Source: an uncultured SAR116 cluster alpha proteobacterium (GTDB taxonomy: Bacteria; Pseudomonadota; Alphaproteobacteria; Puniceispirillales; Marisalimonadaceae). Taken from it: 42,751 bases of DNA. Of the stretch, positions 1,465-37,063 are shown piece after piece. The notes under the pieces are model-generated. The model had not been told where the DNA came from, ran no database searches, and saw only the letters and a list, made by a program, of their open reading frames with translations. The position numbers and the translations under genes are program-made. Location: positions 1 through 42,751 of the forward strand of contig CACIRZ010000010.1 of NCBI GenBank assembly GCA_902589185.1, written 5' to 3'. How positions within the stretch are numbered: the stretch's first letter is position 1; each line of letters opens with the position of its first letter.

Positions 1465-2580
1465 TTATTTTGTTAATTCCTCTAATTTGTTGATAACTGA
1501 GTCCATCATACCTTTCGTACCAACTTTGGCTCTCCCTGAAGCCATTATATCTTGCGTTCTTGGTCCAGCATCTAAAGCTCTTGAAACAGCTTCATCAATT
1601 AAATCTGCCTCTTCTTTCATTTCAAATGAATAACGAAATAACATTGACAAACTTAAAAGTTCTGCCAAGGGATTCGCTAACTCTTTTCCAGCTATATCTG
1701 GAGCTGAACCATGAACTGGTTCATACATAGCATGTCGCTTTCCCGTATTTTGGTCGATAGATCCTAAACTAGCAGAAGGAAGCATTCCTAGTGAACCGGT
1801 TAACATAGCTGCGCAATCCGATAGAATATCGCCAAATAAATTATCTGTAACAATAACATCAAATTGCTTGGGATCTCTTACTAATTGCATAGCGCAATTA
1901 TCAGCATACATGTGGTTAATTGATATATCTGAGCCTTCTTTTTCATGAAGATTAGTCATCACTTCTCGCCACAAAACACCTGACATCATTACATTAGCTT
2001 TTTCTACAGAAGTCACTTTACTATTTCTAGTTCTTGCCATATCAAAGCCAACCCTACCAATTCTTTCAATCTCTGGTGTGGTATAAAGATTAGTATCATA
2101 ACCTTTTTTTGTGAGGTTATCGATTTCTTCTATTCCACGAGGCTCTGCAAAATAAATACCTCCGGTTAACTCTCTTAATATTAGAATATCTAAGCCAGAG
2201 ACAATGCTAGATTTAAGAGAAGAAGCATCAACGAGAGCCGGAAAAACTATGGCAGGCCTAAGGTTAGCAAACAAATCCATTTCTTTTCTTAATCTCAAAA
2301 GACCATTTTCAGGTCTTTTTTCAAATGCAACTCCATCGTACTTTGGGCTCCCTACTGCACCAAATAAAATTGCATCTGCATCAATTGCGTCTGCTAACGT
2401 TTCGTCTGAAAGAGGCGTGCCATATTTGTCAAAAGAAGCACCACCTACTAAACCTTCCTTTAAGTTAAAACTAATACTTTTATTTTTTGCAAACCAATCA
2501 ACAACTCTTAAAGTTTCTTTAACAACCTCAGGTCCAACTCCATCTCCAGGTAGAACCATTAATGTACGATTAGATGGCAT
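1465..2580 (-). CDS. leuB: 3-isopropylmalate dehydrogenase
   Basis: This cytosolic NAD-dependent enzyme oxidises and decarboxylates 3-isopropylmalate in leucine synthesis. The protein has 371 residues, the usual LeuB size. It shows the N-terminal PGDGVGPEV motif (residues 11-19), the substrate-binding arginine stretch 'RPENGLLRLRKE', and the metal-binding acidic segment around 'TDNLFGDILSD', with 'EPVHGSAPDIAGK' toward the end. The start at 2580 follows leuD by 20 bp. Order leuC-leuD-leuB-asd on one strand suggests a single operon for branched-chain and aspartate-family amino acids. Confidence 0.98.
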   Translation of the reverse strand: MPSNRTLMVLPGDGVGPEVVKETLRVVDWFAKNKSISFNLKEGLVGGASFDKYGTPLSDETLADAIDADAILFGAVGSPKYDGVAFEKRPENGLLRLRKEMDLFANLRPAIVFPALVDASSLKSSIVSGLDILILRELTGGIYFAEPRGIEEIDNLTKKGYDTNLYTTPEIERIGRVGFDMARTRNSKVTSVEKANVMMSGVLWREVMTNLHEKEGSDISINHMYADNCAMQLVRDPKQFDVIVTDNLFGDILSDCAAMLTGSLGMLPSASLGSIDQNTGKRHAMYEPVHGSAPDIAGKELANPLAELLSLSMLFRYSFEMKEEADLIDEAVSRALDAGPRTQDIMASGRAKVGTKGMMDSVINKLEELTK

Positions 2581-2600
2581 TATATCAACTCACTTTTTAA

Positions 2601-3206
2601 TTATAACCACGGTCTTTCATGAGACATCTTGGTTTCAAATTTTTTAATATCACTAGATTTCTGCATTGTTATGCCTATATCATCTAATCCCTCAAGTAAG
2701 CATTTTTTTCTGAAAGGGTCGATTTCAAACTTGATAACTGCTCCATTAGGTCTTCTAATTTCTTGAGATGGAAGGTCAATTTCTAGTTCAGGATTTTCCA
2801 TGTCTTTTGAATCTGCCAACAAAGCATCTCTTTCGTCAGATGAAACTTTAATAGGTAAAAGACCATTTTTAAAAGAGTTATTGTAAAAAATATCAGCAAA
2901 AGATGTTGAGATAATACATTTTATTCCAAAATCAGATAAAGCCCAGGGTGCATGTTCTCTACTTGAACCACATCCAAAGTTATCACCTGCAACAAGGATA
3001 TTACTCTTTCTATATGGTTCTTTATTTAACACAAACTCTTCTTTTTCAGAACCATCATCATTAAATCTCATCTCATCAAAGAGATGTTTTCCTAAACCTG
3101 TTCTTTTAATTGTCTTTAAAAATTGTTTAGGAATTATTTTGTCTGTGTCTACATTAATAAAATTAAATGGAGCAGCTACACCTTTAATATTTTTAAATTT
3201 TTCCAT
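2601..3206 (-). CDS. leuD: 3-isopropylmalate dehydratase, small subunit
   Basis: LeuD is the swivelling small subunit that pairs with LeuC to isomerise 2- to 3-isopropylmalate. The 201-residue protein contains the characteristic '[14 protein letters not shown]' start and the '[17 protein letters not shown]' block that closes over the active site. It lies 16 bp downstream of leuC, so the two subunits are likely made from one message. Nothing in it looks degraded. Confidence 0.98.
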
Positions 3207-3222
3207 AGTTAAACCTCTAAAA

Positions 3223-4626
3223 TTACATGATTGAATTATAATCAGTTAATTTGCCTGTAATTGCAGAGGCAGCAGCTATTTCAGGACTAACTAGATGTGT
3301 TCTCCCACCTTTACCCTGTCTGCCTTCAAAATTTCGATTAGATGTACTTGCACACCTTTCACCAGGCTGAAGTTTATCTTCATTCATAGCTAAACACATT
3401 GAACAGCCAGGCTCTCTCCATTCAAATCCAGCTTCAGTAAATAACAAATTTAGACCCTCTTCTTCAGCTTGACTTTTCACCAACCCAGAACCTGGAACAA
3501 CCATTGCCCTTATGCCTTTTTTAACTTTTTTTCCATCGATTACTTTTGCGGCTGATCTTAAATCTTCAATTCTAGAGTTTGTACATGAACCGATGAATAC
3601 TGTGTTTATTTCAACTTCAGAAATTTTTTGGCCACCTTTCAATCCCATATAGTCAAGTGATCTTTGTACTTTAGCTCTTGCGTCCTCATCTTTAATCTTG
3701 GAAGGATCAGGTATATAACCATCAATTGAAACAACATCTTCCGGACTAGTGCCCCAGGTTACAGTTGGCTTAATTTTACTAGCATCAATGGTAATCTTCT
3801 TATCATAAAATGCATTTTCATCCGAAGGTAATGATTGCCACCACTCTAGAGCCAAATCCCAATCTTTACCTTTTGGAGACATGGGCTTATCTCTCAAGTA
3901 ATCAAATGTTACTTTGTCAGGGGCTATCATTCCTGCTCTCGCACCAGCTTCTATTGACATATTGCAAACTGTCATACGACCTTCCATAGAAAGTTTTTCT
4001 ATAGCTTGTCCAGAATATTCAATAACGTGACCAGTTCCACCTGCAGTGCCTATTTCTCCAATAATAGCAAGAACTAAATCTTTAGGAGACACACCTGGTT
4101 GAAGCTCACCTTCAACGTTAATAAGCATATTTTTAGCTGGCTTTTGAATCAAAGTTTGAGTAGCCAAAACATGTTCTACTTCTGATGTACCTATACCGAA
4201 AGCTAAAGCCCCAAAAGCTCCATGAGTTGCTGTATGGCTATCGCCACAAACTATAGTCATACCTGGTTGGGTAAAGCCTTGTTCTGGCCCTATAACGTGA
4301 ACAATTCCTTGCCTTTTGTCCATCATATTAAAATATGGTATTCCAAAATCTTCTACATTCTTGTCTAACGCTTCAACTTGGATCTTAGATTCTTCTTCTT
4401 GAATTCCTCCAGCTCGATCTGTTGTTGGAACGTTATGATCAGCGACAGCTAGAGTTCTATTTGGGGAATTTACAACTCTACCAGACATTCTTAAACCTTC
4501 AAATGCTTGCGGGCTTGTTACTTCATGAACTAAATGTCTATCAATGTATATTAATGACGCTCCATCTTCTTGTGTGCTAATAAGATGGTAATCCCAAATT
4601 TTATCAAATAATGTTCTGGGCTTCAT
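3223..4626 (-). CDS. leuC: 3-isopropylmalate dehydratase, large subunit
   Basis: This is the aconitase-family subunit holding the 4Fe-4S cluster. At 467 residues it is full length. The cluster cysteines are visible in '[12 protein letters not shown]' (one) and '[11 protein letters not shown]' (two), with '[20 protein letters not shown]' near residue 130-150 as the substrate region. It is first in the leuCDB-asd run. A 67-bp gap separates it from the rplS stop codon upstream, AT-rich and without a clear hairpin, so it could be read through from the ribosomal operon or have its own promoter there. Confidence 0.98.
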
Positions 4627-32901: not shown

Positions 32902-32976
32902 GCGGGCGTAGCTCAGTGGTAGAGCATCTCGTTGCCAACGAGAATGTCGAGAGTTCGAATCTCTTCGCCCGCTCCA
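32902..32976 (+). tRNA. tRNA-Gly (anticodon GCC)
   Basis: The acceptor stem GCGGGCG pairs fully with CGCCCGC, the anticodon stem-loop reads CTCGTTGCCAACGAG with GCC in the loop, the T-arm is GAGAGTTCGAATCTC and CCA is encoded. All arms pair without mismatches. It is the integration target for the elements that follow: an 18-bp copy of its 3' end recurs at 34098 and nearly the whole gene recurs at 36989. Confidence 0.97.
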
Positions 32977-33041
32977 ATTCATGTGTTCCACCTCCCATAA
33001 GCAGTTGATATGTAAGCATATTTTGTATTGTGAGCTTGGAG

Positions 33042-33066
33042 GGTAGACCAAATGATAGACCATTTT
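33042..33066 (+). repeat. GGTAGAC double repeat, A-type, left end of element A
   Basis: The unit GGTAGACCAAATG is followed at once by a second, ATAGACCATTTT. It has the same shape as the copy at 33984, differing at two positions. It could be an arm-type binding site for a tyrosine recombinase; inferred from position only. Confidence 0.5.
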
Positions 33067-33182
33067 TTGCTTACTTTAACTTTAATTATTTGCCATCTAT
33101 TTAGATTTAATAATCGTAAATGTTTATAATCATCTTTGTTTATATATTTTACATCGAATAAAAGATTTATTATGGTTTAAGA

Positions 33183-33551
33183 ATGATGTGTCTAAGAAAA
33201 ATATTTTTGATATTTTTTATATCTATATTTATTATATCTTGCGATAATTCAGATAATTCTTCCAATGTTATTATAAAAATATATGGATATGCTGAATATG
33301 ATTGTACAGAAAAAAAGTATAGACTTACCAAAGAAACACCAATAATACCATTTTTAAAAGTTAACAAATGGTATTCTCAAAAACAATTTCATGAAGCTCA
33401 CTATGAAGATGCAATAAAAGCATTTAAGGATATGCCAATGAGTGAGGATAGTCTTAAAAAAATTGCGCCAACATTAGAATTAAGTAATCAATTTTTATAT
33501 GAGTTAACTACTGGAGTTGATTGTGAAAATCCTAAAGATATCCTATTCTAG
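33183..33551 (+). CDS. Small lipoprotein of unknown function
   Basis: 122 residues with a lipoprotein signal: basic start, a hydrophobic stretch 'IFLIFFISIFIISC' and the lipid-accepting Cys20, followed by Asp-Asn-Ser. An Asp right after the cysteine would favour inner-membrane retention under the rule known from E. coli, if it applies here. The mature part is about 100 residues with two further cysteines. Met1 and Met2 are both possible starts. I do not recognise the family. It is cargo of element A. Confidence 0.65.
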   Translation: MMCLRKIFLIFFISIFIISCDNSDNSSNVIIKIYGYAEYDCTEKKYRLTKETPIIPFLKVNKWYSQKQFHEAHYEDAIKAFKDMPMSEDSLKKIAPTLELSNQFLYELTTGVDCENPKDILF

Positions 33552-33609
33552 ATTTTTAAACATCAAAGATATATTACAAAGATAATTACAGTTCAGAAAA
33601 ACACCTGAA

Positions 33610-33735
33610 ATGCAAGTTGATAAAGATGGATTTGTATCATTAGAAATAGACGATATACTCAATGCAGAGAATGAATACTCTCAATGGAGAGATAGAAATG
33701 ATATGTGGATGAGTAAAAATAGAGAAAGTAAATAA
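33610..33735 (+). CDS. Short acidic reading frame, perhaps a gene fragment
   Basis: 41 codons reading MQVDKDGFVSLEIDDIL onward, rich in Asp/Glu, ending in NRESK. The frame is open back to 33586 without another ATG, and no ribosome-binding site is visible, so it may be the tail of a lost gene. Unlike random frames here it is not hydrophobic or lysine-dominated. Function unknown. Confidence 0.3.
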   Translation: MQVDKDGFVSLEIDDILNAENEYSQWRDRNDMWMSKNRESK

Positions 33736-33736
33736 C

Positions 33737-33811
33737 ATGAATAATAAAAGAATAGTTTACATACTCACCAATGAAGCAATGCCGGGCTTAATAAACCAAG
33801 TTTACTGGTGA
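33737..33811 (+). pseudogene. Truncated GIY-YIG nuclease (T5orf172-like), first 24 codons
   Basis: The translation MNNKRIVYILTNEAMPGLIN matches the conserved opening of T5orf172-type GIY-YIG proteins (pattern Y-V/I-Y-I-L-T/S-N-x-A/S-M-P-G-L), but stops where the KIG strand should follow and ends at a TGA after 24 codons. In another frame the next bases encode FTGELIPSICC, loosely like the later TGxPxPFxC segment, so an internal deletion plus frameshift is possible. Small, decayed homing-type nuclease; the family match is from memory. Confidence 0.5.
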
Positions 33812-33982
33812 ACTTATTCCTTCCATCTGCTGCACACCCTAACTATACATATCTACCCATACCCCCATGTCCCATACCCAGGGAGTGTTACACTTTAAGT
33901 GATACATATAAGTGTTATTATAGTTAGGTATATTAATACACTTATACACCCACTTGCTCTGTACTAATAACAGTTAATTTAA
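33812..33982. repeat. Nested inverted repeats in a noncoding stretch
   Basis: Two inverted repeats cross each other: CCTAACTATA (33838-33847) pairs with TATAGTTAGG (33919-33928), and TATAAGTGT (33907-33915) pairs with ACACTTATA (33938-33946). Between them is the small palindrome CACTTTAAGTG (33891-33901). C-rich tracts (such as ACCCATACCCCC) lie between. There is no coding frame. It may be a fold, a protein-binding region, or the junction of an old rearrangement. Confidence 0.55.
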
Positions 33983-33983
33983 G

Positions 33984-34008
33984 GGTAGACCAAACGGTAG
34001 ACCATTTT
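33984..34008 (+). repeat. GGTAGAC double repeat, A-type, right end of element A
   Basis: The same double unit as at 33042 (GGTAGACCAAACG then GTAGACCATTTT), 114 bp before the tRNA 3' remnant. Matching copies at both ends of one cassette are the main evidence that element A is a unit. Confidence 0.5.
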
Positions 34009-34015
34009 GTGCCTC

Positions 34016-34044
34016 TTGACACAGATTCAGTATTACATTATCTG
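34016..34044 (+). promoter_or_regulatory. Weak promoter-like pair near element A's right end
   Basis: TTGACA is followed 17 bp later by TATCTG. The -35 hexamer is perfect; the -10 is poor. No gene starts directly downstream on this strand, so it could be a relic. Confidence 0.2.
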
Positions 34045-34097
34045 AGGATAGAGCTTGTATACAACTATAAGTGGCGCACATAAGATGAGCTTAACTA

Positions 34098-34115
34098 CTC
34101 TTCGCCCGCTCCAAT
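34098..34115 (+). repeat. att-like 18-bp copy of the tRNA-Gly 3' end
   Basis: CTCTTCGCCCGCTCCAAT is identical to bases 32961-32978 (T-arm end, acceptor, CCA and two bases more). It is the expected right-hand attachment site if element A entered the tRNA 3' end. Just after it lies a small GC hairpin (CGCC-TTC-GGCG, 34117-34127) that may once have been the tRNA's downstream sequence. Confidence 0.75.
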
Positions 34116-34180
34116 CGCCTTCGGCGGGATGCCCAGTTTTCCTTAAATATTCGACCTTTTAGAAGTGTTGACTTTTGATG

Positions 34181-34209
34181 GGTAGACAAAATGGTAGACA
34201 AAAGATGAG
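34181..34209 (+). repeat. GGTAGAC double repeat, B-type, left end of element B
   Basis: GGTAGACAAAAT is followed by GGTAGACAAAAGATGAG. The second half matches 36910-36926 over 17 bases. It lies 66 bp after the tRNA 3' remnant, almost the same offset as the A-type copy from the intact tRNA. Confidence 0.5.
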
Positions 34210-34231
34210 AATTTTTTCACTGCTGAACGGT

Positions 34232-34876
34232 CTAATTGATTAATCCCATTACCTCAAAAGTCTTTTGAACATAGTCAACTAATTCAGCTTTCTTCTCAAT
34301 TATTTCAATGTCATAGTTTGTTTTTTTTGTAAATTCAAAAAATCGTTTTTCATCATCTTTATCAAGTTTGAATTTAATTTTTTTAGCAATTTCTCTAATT
34401 CTTCTATTAACTAAACTATCTATTCTTTCTAAATCCCTCTTATCTAAACTCTCTTCATTTTTAAAATTTTTAACAGCATCAAATAATCTTTCTTCTTTAG
34501 CAATTTCATAATTTTTAATAGATTTATAGCCATTTATTTTATTTCTAAAATTATCATTTCTATCATAATTATCGTCTGAAGAATTGTTGTTATTGTCATA
34601 TGAATATGATTGATCACTAGAGTTGTTTTGAACAGATGGTGTTTCTGCAGTTTTACTAGTAAGTGCATTATCTTTGCTTGAGTTAGTAATATTTTCTATA
34701 CTTTTACTTGCTGAAGCCTCTGTTTTAACTCCTACACTTTTGTCACCTGATTTATCTGCTTTACTTACAGAAACAGTGACACTTACTTTTCCAGAATTTT
34801 TGCTGTAAGAAAATGCTTTGTTTTGGATAAGTAATGTAGAAAGTATAAATATAAATATTTTAAATAAGATTTTCAT
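34232..34876 (-). CDS. Secreted low-complexity protein, unknown function
   Basis: 214 residues. A signal peptide is clear ('ILFKIFIFILSTLLIQNKAF', cut expected after AFS). About residues 27-115 are rich in Ser, Asn, Asp and Lys, probably unstructured. About 115-214 are charged and likely helical ('RIDSLVNRRIREIAKKIKFK'), perhaps a coiled coil. No family recognised. It is the only minus-strand gene in element B, and it diverges from the paralogue pair. Confidence 0.6.
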   Translation of the reverse strand: MKILFKIFIFILSTLLIQNKAFSYSKNSGKVSVTVSVSKADKSGDKSVGVKTEASASKSIENITNSSKDNALTSKTAETPSVQNNSSDQSYSYDNNNNSSDDNYDRNDNFRNKINGYKSIKNYEIAKEERLFDAVKNFKNEESLDKRDLERIDSLVNRRIREIAKKIKFKLDKDDEKRFFEFTKKTNYDIEIIEKKAELVDYVQKTFEVMGLIN

Positions 34877-35016
34877 TGTTTTCTATGTTTCAAATCATGA
34901 ATTGAGTATTGAATTTATATAATAGATTGGGTTAAATTTGAAAGAAATAAAATTGTTTTTTCGAATACATACTAATGTTTTTGCATATTTAATTTGCATA
35001 CTAACAGGTGACATAC
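34877..35016. promoter_or_regulatory. Divergent spacer with short direct repeats
   Basis: About 140 bp between two divergent genes. TTTGCATA occurs twice, 13 bp apart (34980-34987, 34993-35000), and CATACTAA occurs at 34968 and 34997. Such spacing could be a regulator site, but no good -10/-35 pair stands out. Confidence 0.3.
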
Positions 35017-35361
35017 ATGGTAAAACCAATAACCAAAGAGACTTTATTCATGAATTGTATGGAGCTAGATTTTGCAACAAAGGTTGAATTAGAGCACTGG
35101 ATGGCAACTTTTGAAGAAAAAGTATGGACAGAAGATATAATGAAAGAACTATCTAAAGCAGGATTAGTAAGAAGAACTGTTGCCCAAGTCTGGAACAAAC
35201 AAAATCATAGATTAACAAGTACATTTGAGTATGAAGATGAGAATGCTTACAAGGCGTGTCAAAAGATAATTGAAGAAAAAGTTATGCCTAAAGCACTAGC
35301 AAGTTATACCATAAAGTCTAGGAATAATAGGGGGGTAATTTTTTATGATTATAGAAGTTGA
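35017..35361 (+). CDS. Unrecognised small protein, paralogue 1 of a tandem pair
   Basis: 114 residues from the ATG at 35017, chosen because AGGTG lies 5 bases ahead and because the sister gene starts at the matching MVKPITKETLFMN. An upstream GTG (35008) would add three residues. The chain has mixed helix and strand character: 'ELEHWMATFEEKVWTEDIMK', 'AQVWNKQNHRLTSTFEYEDE', 'ACQKIIEEKVMPKAL', ending DYRS. No signal peptide or membrane segment. The alternation resembles a ferredoxin-like/dimeric alpha-beta barrel, but that is only an impression. I do not know the family. Confidence 0.8.
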   Translation: MVKPITKETLFMNCMELDFATKVELEHWMATFEEKVWTEDIMKELSKAGLVRRTVAQVWNKQNHRLTSTFEYEDENAYKACQKIIEEKVMPKALASYTIKSRNNRGVIFYDYRS

Positions 35362-35446
35362 TTTAGATCCATATCTAATCCTTAGTGATAATTGGTCTTG
35401 ATATAGCTACCCCGTTTTTTAAATAAAAACTCAAAAGGTGAGATAA

Positions 35447-35791
35447 ATGGTAAAACCTATAACTAAAGAGACTCTATTTATGAATGTTATGGAGTTAGAT
35501 TTTCCTTCAAAGATTGAATTAGAGCATTGGCTTGAAACCTTTCAAGATAGAATATGGACTGATGATTTAATGGCAGAGCTTTCTGAAGCTGGGTTGATTA
35601 GAGTAACAGTCTCCCAAGTTTGGAACAAAGAAAATCATAGGCTCACAAGGGTTTTTGAATATGAGTCTGAGAGAGCATATAGAGACTGTCAAAAAATAAT
35701 TGAAGAGAAAGTGGTTCCAAAAGTAGGAAAAAATTATAACACTAAATATAGGAACAATAGAGGAATTGTTCTTCATGATTATAGAAGTTGA
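35447..35791 (+). CDS. Unrecognised small protein, paralogue 2 of a tandem pair
   Basis: 114 residues, the same length as its neighbour and clearly homologous throughout (MVKPITKETLFMN, MELDF, ELEHW, QVWNK, NHRLT, FEYE, CQKIIEEKV, RNNRG, DYRS are shared). AAAAGGTGAGATAA precedes the ATG and resembles the leader of copy 1. The two differ most at surface-like positions, and both keep full-length frames, so both seem to be under selection. The 85-bp spacer has no obvious promoter, so they are probably co-transcribed. Confidence 0.8.
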   Translation: MVKPITKETLFMNVMELDFPSKIELEHWLETFQDRIWTDDLMAELSEAGLIRVTVSQVWNKENHRLTRVFEYESERAYRDCQKIIEEKVVPKVGKNYNTKYRNNRGIVLHDYRS

Positions 35792-35945
35792 TTTATAAGT
35801 TCTAAATCTATTTTTAAAAATATACATGAATTGTCAGCCTGCCAAATTTTAAATAACTTCTAAAATTATCAACACAGCAAACCTGAATTTTTTTGATAAT
35901 ATTTAGTGATATTGAAAATTATTTAAAAAAGATTAAATATTTACT

Positions 35946-36062
35946 ATGTCAACAATACAAAAAATCATAGTTATACCAATATTGAGATCTCAAGTTAGAC
36001 TTTATGTTTTTTTTGGTATTCTTTTTGGTTTTTATCAATTTATTTCATGGATAGAAAATTAG
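35946..36062 (+). CDS. Micro-membrane protein, 38 residues
   Basis: Found by hand: MSTIQKIIVIPILRSQVRLY then a hydrophobic run 'VFFGILFGFYQFISWIEN'. One transmembrane helix of about 16-18 residues is likely. No strong ribosome-binding site is seen before it, but its TAG is part of the AGGAG ribosome-binding site of the next gene, which hints at coupling. Confidence 0.45.
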   Translation: MSTIQKIIVIPILRSQVRLYVFFGILFGFYQFISWIEN

Positions 36063-36071
36063 GAGTTTAAT

Positions 36072-36224
36072 ATGTTTGGATTAGGAATAATTAAAGGCAC
36101 TATTATAGGTATGGGCGTGGGAGTAATGGCTGGTCTAGCTCTCAAAGAAGTTTGCAAAATTAAAAAAAAGAAAGATCAAATTAGTAAAACTGAAAGCGAT
36201 ATTGTTGACCCAGAAAATAGTTAA
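36072..36224 (+). CDS. Micro-membrane protein, 50 residues
   Basis: Reads MFGLGIIKGTIIGMGVGVMA and on with 'GLALKEVCKIKKKKDQISKT'. One Gly-rich hydrophobic helix (about 3-24) is followed by a basic stretch and a hydrophilic end. AGGAG is 6 bases before the ATG, a good start signal. It ends 16 bp before the DUF4174-like gene. Family unknown. Confidence 0.6.
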   Translation: MFGLGIIKGTIIGMGVGVMAGLALKEVCKIKKKKDQISKTESDIVDPENS

Positions 36225-36240
36225 TACAAATTAATGAAAA

Positions 36241-36786
36241 ATGGATTTATCGAAATACAAATGGAAATGTAGAATACTTTTGTTATGTACGACTTGCTAC
36301 AGAGATGATAACTACAAAAAATCTAAAGAACTTTATCAAAAGCATATAAAAGAATTTCATAAAAGGCATTTCAAATTAATGTCTTTCAGAAAAAAGGGTC
36401 TTAAGTTCTCTATTAAACTAATAGGTTACGACGGTACTTTAAAAAAAGAATATCCAACTTTGGAACCTAATATTATTTTTGATCTTATAGATGCTATGCC
36501 AATGAGTAAGCAAGACTATCAGGGAAAGTTAAAGCCTCTTAATCTGTCTCTATATTCAGATTACAAGCCCGAGAAAACTTTAAAAGGACTCGGATTTAAG
36601 AATAAAGAAAAAGCTACCTATACAGTAGATGCAATAAAAGCTAGAGACAAAAAATATCAAGTTAATGTTGTATCCACCATGTTAGGTAGAGCAAAAAAAC
36701 ATCCAAACAAAACTGCTGATATGGATGAAGCAATACTAGTTTTTGAGAAATGGATGCTGAATTACAAAAAAACTAAAGCAAATTAG
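36241..36786 (+). CDS. DUF4174-like protein with C-terminal helical module
   Basis: 181 residues. The first 90 or so fit DUF4174: the opening 'MDLSKYKWKCRILLLCTTCY' (D-L-x-x-Y-x-W-x-x-R) and 'NIIFDLIDAMPMSKQDYQGK' (the IDAMPM motif). From about 100 comes a lysine-rich part with 'GFKNKEKATYTVDAIK' and 'YQVNVVSTMLGRAKKHPNKT', unlike DUF4174 and possibly a separate helical module. It has no signal peptide although many DUF4174 proteins are exported. It is the last gene of element B; function unknown. Confidence 0.7.
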   Translation: MDLSKYKWKCRILLLCTTCYRDDNYKKSKELYQKHIKEFHKRHFKLMSFRKKGLKFSIKLIGYDGTLKKEYPTLEPNIIFDLIDAMPMSKQDYQGKLKPLNLSLYSDYKPEKTLKGLGFKNKEKATYTVDAIKARDKKYQVNVVSTMLGRAKKHPNKTADMDEAILVFEKWMLNYKKTKAN

Positions 36787-36858
36787 TTACTTGTACAACT
36801 AACGCTTCAACATAAAACGAAATCTAAATTACGCGCCTATACATACACCCCCCGGGTG

Positions 36859-36880
36859 GCCCTTGCAGGGCATTTCTTGT
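36859..36880 (+). terminator. Possible terminator after the DUF4174-like gene
   Basis: GCCCT and AGGGC form a 5-bp stem around TGC, followed by ATTTCTTGTT. The T-run is weak, so termination may be partial. It is about 73 bp past the DUF4174-like stop codon. Confidence 0.4.
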
Positions 36881-36909
36881 TATTAATTATAAAAGGCAGA
36901 ATACAAAAA

Positions 36910-36926
36910 GGTAGACAAAAGATGAG
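36910..36926 (+). repeat. GGTAGAC single repeat, B-type, right end of element B
   Basis: GGTAGACAAAAGATGAG is identical over 17 bases to 34193-34209 and sits 63-80 bp before the decayed tRNA copy. One unit only here, against two at the left end. Confidence 0.5.
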
Positions 36927-36988
36927 CATCTTTACTCCTTTTTTAATAATATTCTATCGTAGTAATTGCAGTTGAATACAAAGGAATA

Positions 36989-37063
36989 ATGGCGGTTGCT
37001 CAGTGGCAGAGCATCTCGTTGCCAACGAGAATGTCGAGAGTTCGAATCTCTTCGCCCACTCCA
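36989..37063 (+). pseudogene. Decayed tRNA-Gly copy / attachment site remnant
   Basis: From GCTCAGTGG to the CCA this matches the intact tRNA-Gly with only two substitutions. The 5' acceptor strand (ATGGCGG) does not pair properly with CGCCCAC: positions 1-72, 5-68 and 6-67 are mismatched. No promoter is visible. It is probably the displaced old tRNA end, or an att site kept by element B, and not a working tRNA. Its end is 17 bp from the dmdA stop codon. Confidence 0.75.

Follow-up and report, generated by a model that had tools for sequence, protein, structure and literature searches.

The question raised by this locus is how genes without a recombinase of their own come to stand one behind the other at a transfer RNA (tRNA) gene. 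The locus lies in a stretch of 42,751 nucleotides (the window) from an uncultured SAR116 cluster alphaproteobacterium, in which two small cassettes, A and B, lie end to end behind tRNA-Gly(GCC). As contig C10, the window belongs to a 1.47-Mb genome (G000) that is 62% complete, and we compared it with 121 relatives. The close ones group around SCGC AAA536-G10 within the SAR116 alphaproteobacteria, and many are single-cell genomes. The SAR116 lineage is abundant in the ocean and for the most part uncultured, and the movement of small genes among streamlined genomes is an open question. The region is probably a short array of two non-autonomous tRNA cassettes, similar to cis-mobilizable elements (CIMEs), that are moved in trans by matching integrases of the DUF6538 type. 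Movement is favored by an integrase-less junction shared by cassettes at different tRNAs, by the preserved spacing of the repeats that form the cassette arms, and by the pairing of these arms.

Two cassettes without an integrase

From core to core, cassette A measures 1,137 bp and cassette B 2,950 bp. All features are on the + strand unless stated otherwise. The integration target is an intact tRNA-Gly(GCC) at 32902–32976, called with ARAGORN, the last nucleotides of which form the recombination core at 32961–32978 (the 18-nt core repeat D3). An exact 18-nt copy of the tRNA 3′ end at 34098–34115 is at once the right boundary of A and the left boundary of B. On its outer side the array is bounded by a distal copy of the tRNA-Gly at 36989–37063, and a gcvT-like gene comes next. 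Within this copy, 69 nt at 36995–37063 match tRNA positions 7–75 with 96% identity. A first-pass annotation, made from the letters of the window, had called it decayed; a copy it is, but the decay amounts to a broken acceptor stem, and ARAGORN still calls a tRNA. The intact tRNA, the 18-bp copy of its 3′ end and the A- and B-type end repeats are all present as that annotation described them.

The left end of cassette A (32977–33065) carries an A-type arm with GGTAGACCAAATGATAGACC at 33042. In full-length A-type elements the homologous stretch is the leader and start of the integrase gene, and the homology to the relative G034 stops at 33065. Then follow the cargo gene cA (33183–33551), encoding a 122-residue predicted lipoprotein, and the 5′ remnant of a T5orf172/GIY-YIG gene (MNNKRIVYILTNEAMPGLI..., 33737–33811). 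The right end (33823–34097) has GGTAGACCAAACGGTAGACC at 33984, in which ACG replaces the start ATG, and then the conserved GTGCCT.TTGACA module; the distance from the motif to the end of the core is 129 bp.

Cassette B begins with a B-type arm (34116–34204, with GGTAGACAAAATGGTAGACA at 34181) whose leader is that of the B-type integrases of G027, G039 and G023. Its cargo consists of a 214-residue secreted or membrane-anchored protein of no family (34232–34876, − strand), a DUF6974 protein with a dimeric ferredoxin-like fold close to PDB 2op5 (35020–35361), a second DUF6974 paralogue (35447–35791) and a 181-residue DUF4174-related protein (36241–36786), with a 50-codon open reading frame (ORF) of uncertain coding status and one hydrophobic stretch at 36072–36224. 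At the right end (36776–36988), which is homologous to that of the B-type integrase element of G023, a G+C-rich hairpin-like stretch precedes GGTAGACAAAAGATGAG at 36910. Such stretches (CCCATACCCAGGG, CCCCCGGGTGGCCC) lie near the right end of both cassettes, at 33850–33885 and 36847–36872, and of those in many relatives; they may be terminators or contribute to the function of the right end.

No Phage_integrase match was found in either cassette, so that the absence of an integrase noted in the first-pass annotation holds, and there is good reason to think that the cassettes depend on an outside recombinase, as it proposed. Cassettes A and B contain no phage genes, and their cargo families are unrelated to transfer. 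A search for defence genes with PADLOC gave no convincing match for the window cargo, a single weak Cas11-like hit (E = 0.007) being dismissed, and a defence island was ruled out for that reason.

Arm repeats of fixed spacing and matched type

The left motifs of A and B start 66 and 68 bp beyond their tRNA end, the distances first annotated. Both are double, comprising two 12-bp repeats, as is the right motif of A; the right motif of B is single. The pattern GGTAGACNAANNGGTAGAC is present in 37 of the 121 relatives, and the reversed pattern, which served as a control, occurs in none of the genomes. Within the window's own genome, searched with up to two mismatches, the motif is confined to this array and to tRNA-Arg(TCG) on C3. 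We compared the positions of 45 distinct exact GGTAGACNAANNGGTAGAC sites in the retrieved loci of relatives with random positions. Twenty sites follow a tRNA 3′ end by 64–68 bp and 16 precede a core by 129–130 bp, so that 36 of 45 have a tRNA-end core at a fixed spacing, compared with 0.5–0.7% of random positions. Five of the other nine are truncated by the end of a contig. The fixed spacing, the zero count of the reversed control and the near-restriction to tRNA cores exclude chance.

The arms are also matched within a cassette. Aligning left with right arms in 20 cassettes gives a mean score of 16.9. Shuffling the arms from cassette to cassette lowers it to 12.1 ± 1.0, and none of 20,000 shuffles scored as high. 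The pairing of repeat variant with cassette, first noticed in A and B, thus holds over a wider set. Arm types other than GGTAGAC (CTGTGAAA, CTGATGYACA and others) pair within cassettes as well. Across the genus the targets are tRNA-Gly(GCC), Gly(TCC), Leu(GAG) and Arg(TCG).

The left arm of full-length relatives continues into the gene of a tyrosine integrase with DUF6538 and Phage_integrase domains. Its catalytic residues (R, K, H, R, W and Y) do not vary among the 12 integrases aligned. The start codon lies inside the left arm motif, where GGAGGGTAGACCAAATGGTAGACCAT encodes ...M V D H. A-type integrases include that of G007 (L052:1736–2911), and B-type ones that of G039 (L062). The right arm has ACG where the left has ATG, and from there a conserved module (GTGCCTGTTGACACAG...) runs to the core. 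Arms at both ends, with the start of the integrase inside one of them, have the look expected of integrase binding sites, and on the strength of their sequence the integrase probably binds them.

Cassette A is absent, replaced or found elsewhere

Five congeners (G008, G011, G002, G012 and G009) lack cassette A and have a precise empty site in its place, the tRNA being joined at the 18-nt core to the left end of B. The slot before B is occupied by 18-kb elements in G020 and G032, and in G022 by a different integrase-less A-type cassette of 1.85 kb with a T5orf172 nuclease gene. This T5orf172/GIY-YIG gene is complete (L059:2741–3379) and is a PADLOC PDC-S57 candidate; the window keeps the 5′ remnant only. 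G031 has neither A nor B, and the gcvT-like gene stands directly after the tRNA. Empty and differently filled sites, for which a search had been proposed, do therefore exist.

The cargo gene cA was found in only nine of the 121 relatives, at other loci that include tRNA-Arg cores. In G019 it lies behind a core of the tRNA-Arg type, with the junction between left arm and cargo that is seen in the window, and there is no integrase in the 1.3 kb as far as the contig end. In G018 it stands between tRNA-Arg cores with arms of another type, again with no integrase. The junction common to the window and G019 at different tRNAs is the best evidence that the integrase-less A unit itself has moved.

Cassette B is an apparent old resident

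In most congeners the cargo of cassette B has the same genes on either side, and inside the arms it takes one of two orientations. On a tree of the flanking aminotransferase, three changes of orientation are needed, two of them forced by well-supported branches. So few changes indicate that inversion is rare and that B is mostly inherited, and repeated flipping of the B cargo was rejected on the same count (2–3 changes). G027 has the same B left arm, behind which come a broken B-type integrase and, after it, the B cargo. In G023 a 15-kb stretch with a B-type integrase is inserted before the B cargo, joined through a shared 31-bp arm repeat. From these two arrangements B looks like an old member of the family whose integrase is gone in the window, mostly vertically inherited and not recently inserted. 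Of the two stacked insertions initially proposed, the separateness of the cassettes, each with its own arms, stands, but a recent insertion of B does not, B being resident across the genus. Copies elsewhere are known for cB2 (91%), at tRNA-Leu in G013, and for cB3 (96%), beside a tRNA-Arg core in G023, both with their start in the arm.

The presence of the B cargo at this locus in most congeners, with just 2–3 changes of orientation on the flank-gene tree, would also be expected if the 4 kb were simply resident genes, variable yet vertically inherited, beside which the repeats are incidental. We consider this most improbable, given that A is precisely absent at the core in five congeners, that both cassettes are absent in G031, and that the arm repeats occur almost only at tRNA cores. 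A conserved 4 kb with randomly placed repeats, which the first-pass annotation had named as the outcome that would contradict it, was not what we found for A; the B cargo is widespread in the genus.

Integrase-less cassettes and their cargo in relatives

A census of congeners gave 19 core-to-core units, all with the conserved right module and 0.7–5.4 kb in length. Sixteen have no integrase gene (a few match merely the first integrase codons encoded by the arm), two have fragments and one has a full gene. Four integrase-less cassettes stand in a row at tRNA-Arg in G020, and three cassettes in a row in the stretches counted in each of G033 and G001. Their cargo is mostly small proteins: DUF6974, DUF1330, cupin, MORN and unknown secreted proteins. 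DUF6974 genes occur in 84 of the 121 relatives, where a single genome has as many as eight; 14 control genomes have none. The predicted DUF6974 model (predicted local distance difference test score 84) matches PDB 2op5, a dimeric ferredoxin-like structure from an uncultured marine source. Further matches to the fold are PDB 2od6 and 2od4, structures that likewise come from uncultured marine organisms.

A second cassette in the window's own genome, at tRNA-Arg(TCG) on C3 (L096:840–3703), has an integrase cut after ∼54 codons and a DUF6974 gene inside. Integrase remnants behind intact left arms differ in length, from these ∼54 codons (L096) and fewer in G008 (L105) to 143 residues in G021 and a frameshifted gene in G034. 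Loss of the integrase by deletion thus also happens.

Some further arrangements were seen. A hybrid of left and right arm lies directly behind tRNA-Gly(TCC) at L100:10038–10306, ∼180 bp from core to core, and another directly behind tRNA-Arg(TCG) at L073:1061–1320. These are either scars of recombination between two arm repeats or empty cassettes. An element at tRNA-Gly(TCC) contains a tRNA-Arg core with its right module (L069:8055–8070); here a cassette of one tRNA type has entered one of another.

An inverted attachment site behind the integrase

At 50 integrase loci with a tRNA upstream, we searched the 1.5 kb behind the integrase for a further copy of the tRNA end and left arm. Such a copy is present in inverted form in 34 of the 50 (over 50 nt, mostly 96–100% identical) and in direct form in none; cross-locus controls gave 4 of 300. 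The identity reaches a median of 68 nt past the tRNA, ending about at the arm motif, and after the inverted left arm comes an inverted right arm of the same type. The same inverted pair is found in eight further integrase loci with no detected upstream tRNA. Inverted copies are seen in the isolate HTCC2207 (L201), the isolate BAL199 matches too, and L076, a SAR116-order genome in one contig, has the inverted arm and core behind its second integrase. Among loci L141–L220 they were found, for example, at L201, L144 (G003) and L199, often with 100% identity over 50 nt.

Chimeras from single-cell amplification were rejected as the source, because the architecture recurs in independent genomes, in HTCC2207 and in the one-contig L076, and the copies are never direct. 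Nor are inverted copies a general property of integrases at tRNAs, since four tRNA-linked SAR116 loci of other types have none; one of these is in the window's own genome (G000:C32, L111), at tRNA-Ser(GCT). A phage origin was also rejected. The DUF6974 query, which reaches close relatives only, found nothing in viral contigs, and the integrase gave four distant hits. Phage records contain distant, partial matches to the integrase, and eight plasmid records match at below 60% identity, one full-length at 43%. The near absence of the family from phages and plasmids indicates that these are not ordinary prophage remnants. An open-access literature search, with most subscription papers outside its scope, returned nothing relevant on inverted attachment (att) sites around an integrase or on DUF6538.

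Bracketed by inverted sites, the integrase module is possibly invertible, to judge by the arrangement of its repeats. In G003 inverted left arms flank the integrase and inverted right arms flank the cargo, and small ORFs often begin in or beside the inverted left arm. At L178 (the L080 locus of G076, 1665–3971) the integrase is directed towards tRNA-Arg(CCG) and another gene adjoins the tRNA. This is a candidate for the flipped state, though the leader there is no clear copy. More tentatively, we suggest a system in tRNA-anchored elements of marine Alpha- and Gammaproteobacteria in which two inverted att sites surround the integrase. The enzyme would flip its own gene, or swap it with a small cargo gene that has the same leader and start, in an integron-like or 2-micron-like manner; an intact inverted site would be a landing pad, and the cassettes of the window would be passengers. 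Such sites predict inversion of the integrase gene behind the tRNA.

These observations bear on the origin of the integrase-less units. The integrase might recombine direct with inverted att sites and thereby split itself from the cargo module, leaving sub-cassettes as by-products. The 34 of 50 loci with inverted tRNA end, left arm and then right arm, the arrangement in G003 and the position of the small ORFs all accord with such an origin, which is compatible with mobilization in trans. The exact steps joining left arm to cargo were not seen. For some of them ordinary homologous recombination could be enough, as with the hybrid left/right scars in G010 and G024; we rate this origin as rather unlikely.

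Movement in trans or decay in place

Each cassette would be a complete substrate, consisting of core, left arm, small cargo, right arm and core. Full-length relatives with arms of the matching type would provide the integrase, an A-type enzyme for A and a B-type enzyme for B. After recognizing the GGTAGAC repeats paired in the arms, this enzyme would cut the cassette out between its cores and integrate it again, either into a tRNA 3′ end or into the core of a cassette already in place, the latter giving rise to stacking. We infer both the mobilization in trans and the route between cells, and the arm types point to the DUF6538-type integrases of full-length relatives as the likely helpers.

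Several points weigh against this. The own genome, at 62% completeness, has XerC, XerD and one P4-type integrase elsewhere and no A- or B-type enzyme. The orientation of the B cargo tracks the tree, so B has long been quiet. In principle, cA could also have passed from one tRNA to another through homologous recombination of the arms. The cassettes might instead be decayed tandem islands, complete elements from which the integrase and most cargo were deleted, with the arms as relics and nothing moving (CIMEs formed by decay and accretion). Intermediate stages exist (L096, L105, the G021 fragment and the frameshifted G034), G027 still has the B left end, broken integrase and B cargo in succession, and many congeners have lost the B arms or keep them in broken form. 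Moreover, in full-length relatives the left repeat doubles as the 5′ end of the integrase gene, so that an origin of the integrase loss by decay has to be taken seriously.

Pure decay in place does not yield the integrase-less junction that A and its G019 copy have in common at different tRNAs. Left-end homology ends ∼87–89 nt past the tRNA in both cassettes of the window, close to the reach of the inverted copies (32–82 nt) and not at random, and the spacing and pairing of the arms are preserved in integrase-less cassettes. Decay with no movement is in our view possible and on the unlikely side. The two accounts overlap, in that cassettes may first arise by decay and then move. If mobilization in trans is correct, a small number of helper integrases could suffice for a large pool of cassettes of one to three genes, and the paired arm signatures make that pool searchable by sequence, including in single-cell genomes.

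Comparison with known systems

CIMEs are att-flanked units lacking integrase and transfer genes that can lie in tandem behind one target gene, as in the relatives of ICESt1 in Streptococcus (PMC5704250). The present array resembles them in its core copies (32961, 34098 and the distal tRNA copy at 36995–37063), in the empty site at the core and in having no integrase or transfer genes. It differs in the much smaller size of the units (0.7–5 kb here), the pairing of arms by type, arrays of up to four, and the presence of the same cassette at different tRNAs. No conjugation genes of integrative and conjugative or integrative and mobilizable elements were seen here, the full-length relatives not having been searched systematically. 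As for derivation from such elements, loss of the integrase is visible in relatives.

The ssrA islands of Dehalococcoides are also tandem and bounded by copies of the target 3′ end, and 15 of 31 have no integration module (PMC3146451). They use serine recombinases and the sole target ssrA, whereas here there is a DUF6538 tyrosine integrase and several tRNAs. Tycheposons are 4–200 kb in length with a tyrosine recombinase (as cited in PMC10872708), and an additive island of Methylopumilus has recurring repeats of a tRNA 3′ end (PMC10872708). The likeness lies in cargo islands at tRNA genes of streamlined marine bacteria. The tycheposon analogy of the first-pass annotation fails on size and on the missing recombinase, since the cassettes of the window are 1.1 and 2.9 kb and have none.

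Integron cassettes are small, mostly of one or two genes, with cargo of unknown kind, and their arrays are served by one tyrosine recombinase. Their boundaries differ from those found here, which are tRNA cores and double-stranded arm repeats. The integron integrase model scored 19 bits on the associated integrase, against a cut-off of 265, and there is no IntI-type gene near the region. In mobile insertion cassettes, which are transposase-less derivatives of insertion sequences, a related enzyme recognizes the ends and cargo replaces the enzyme gene. Here the enzyme is a site-specific tyrosine integrase with tRNA targets and not a transposase. Unlike phage satellites, that is phage-inducible chromosomal islands and phage-inducible chromosomal minimalist islands, the cassettes have no integrase or phage genes of their own, and the integrase family is nearly absent from phage collections. 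Tandem, att-bounded islands lacking an integrase are therefore already known; what differs here is the size, the arm pairing, the range of tRNAs, the arrays and, above all, the inverted site.

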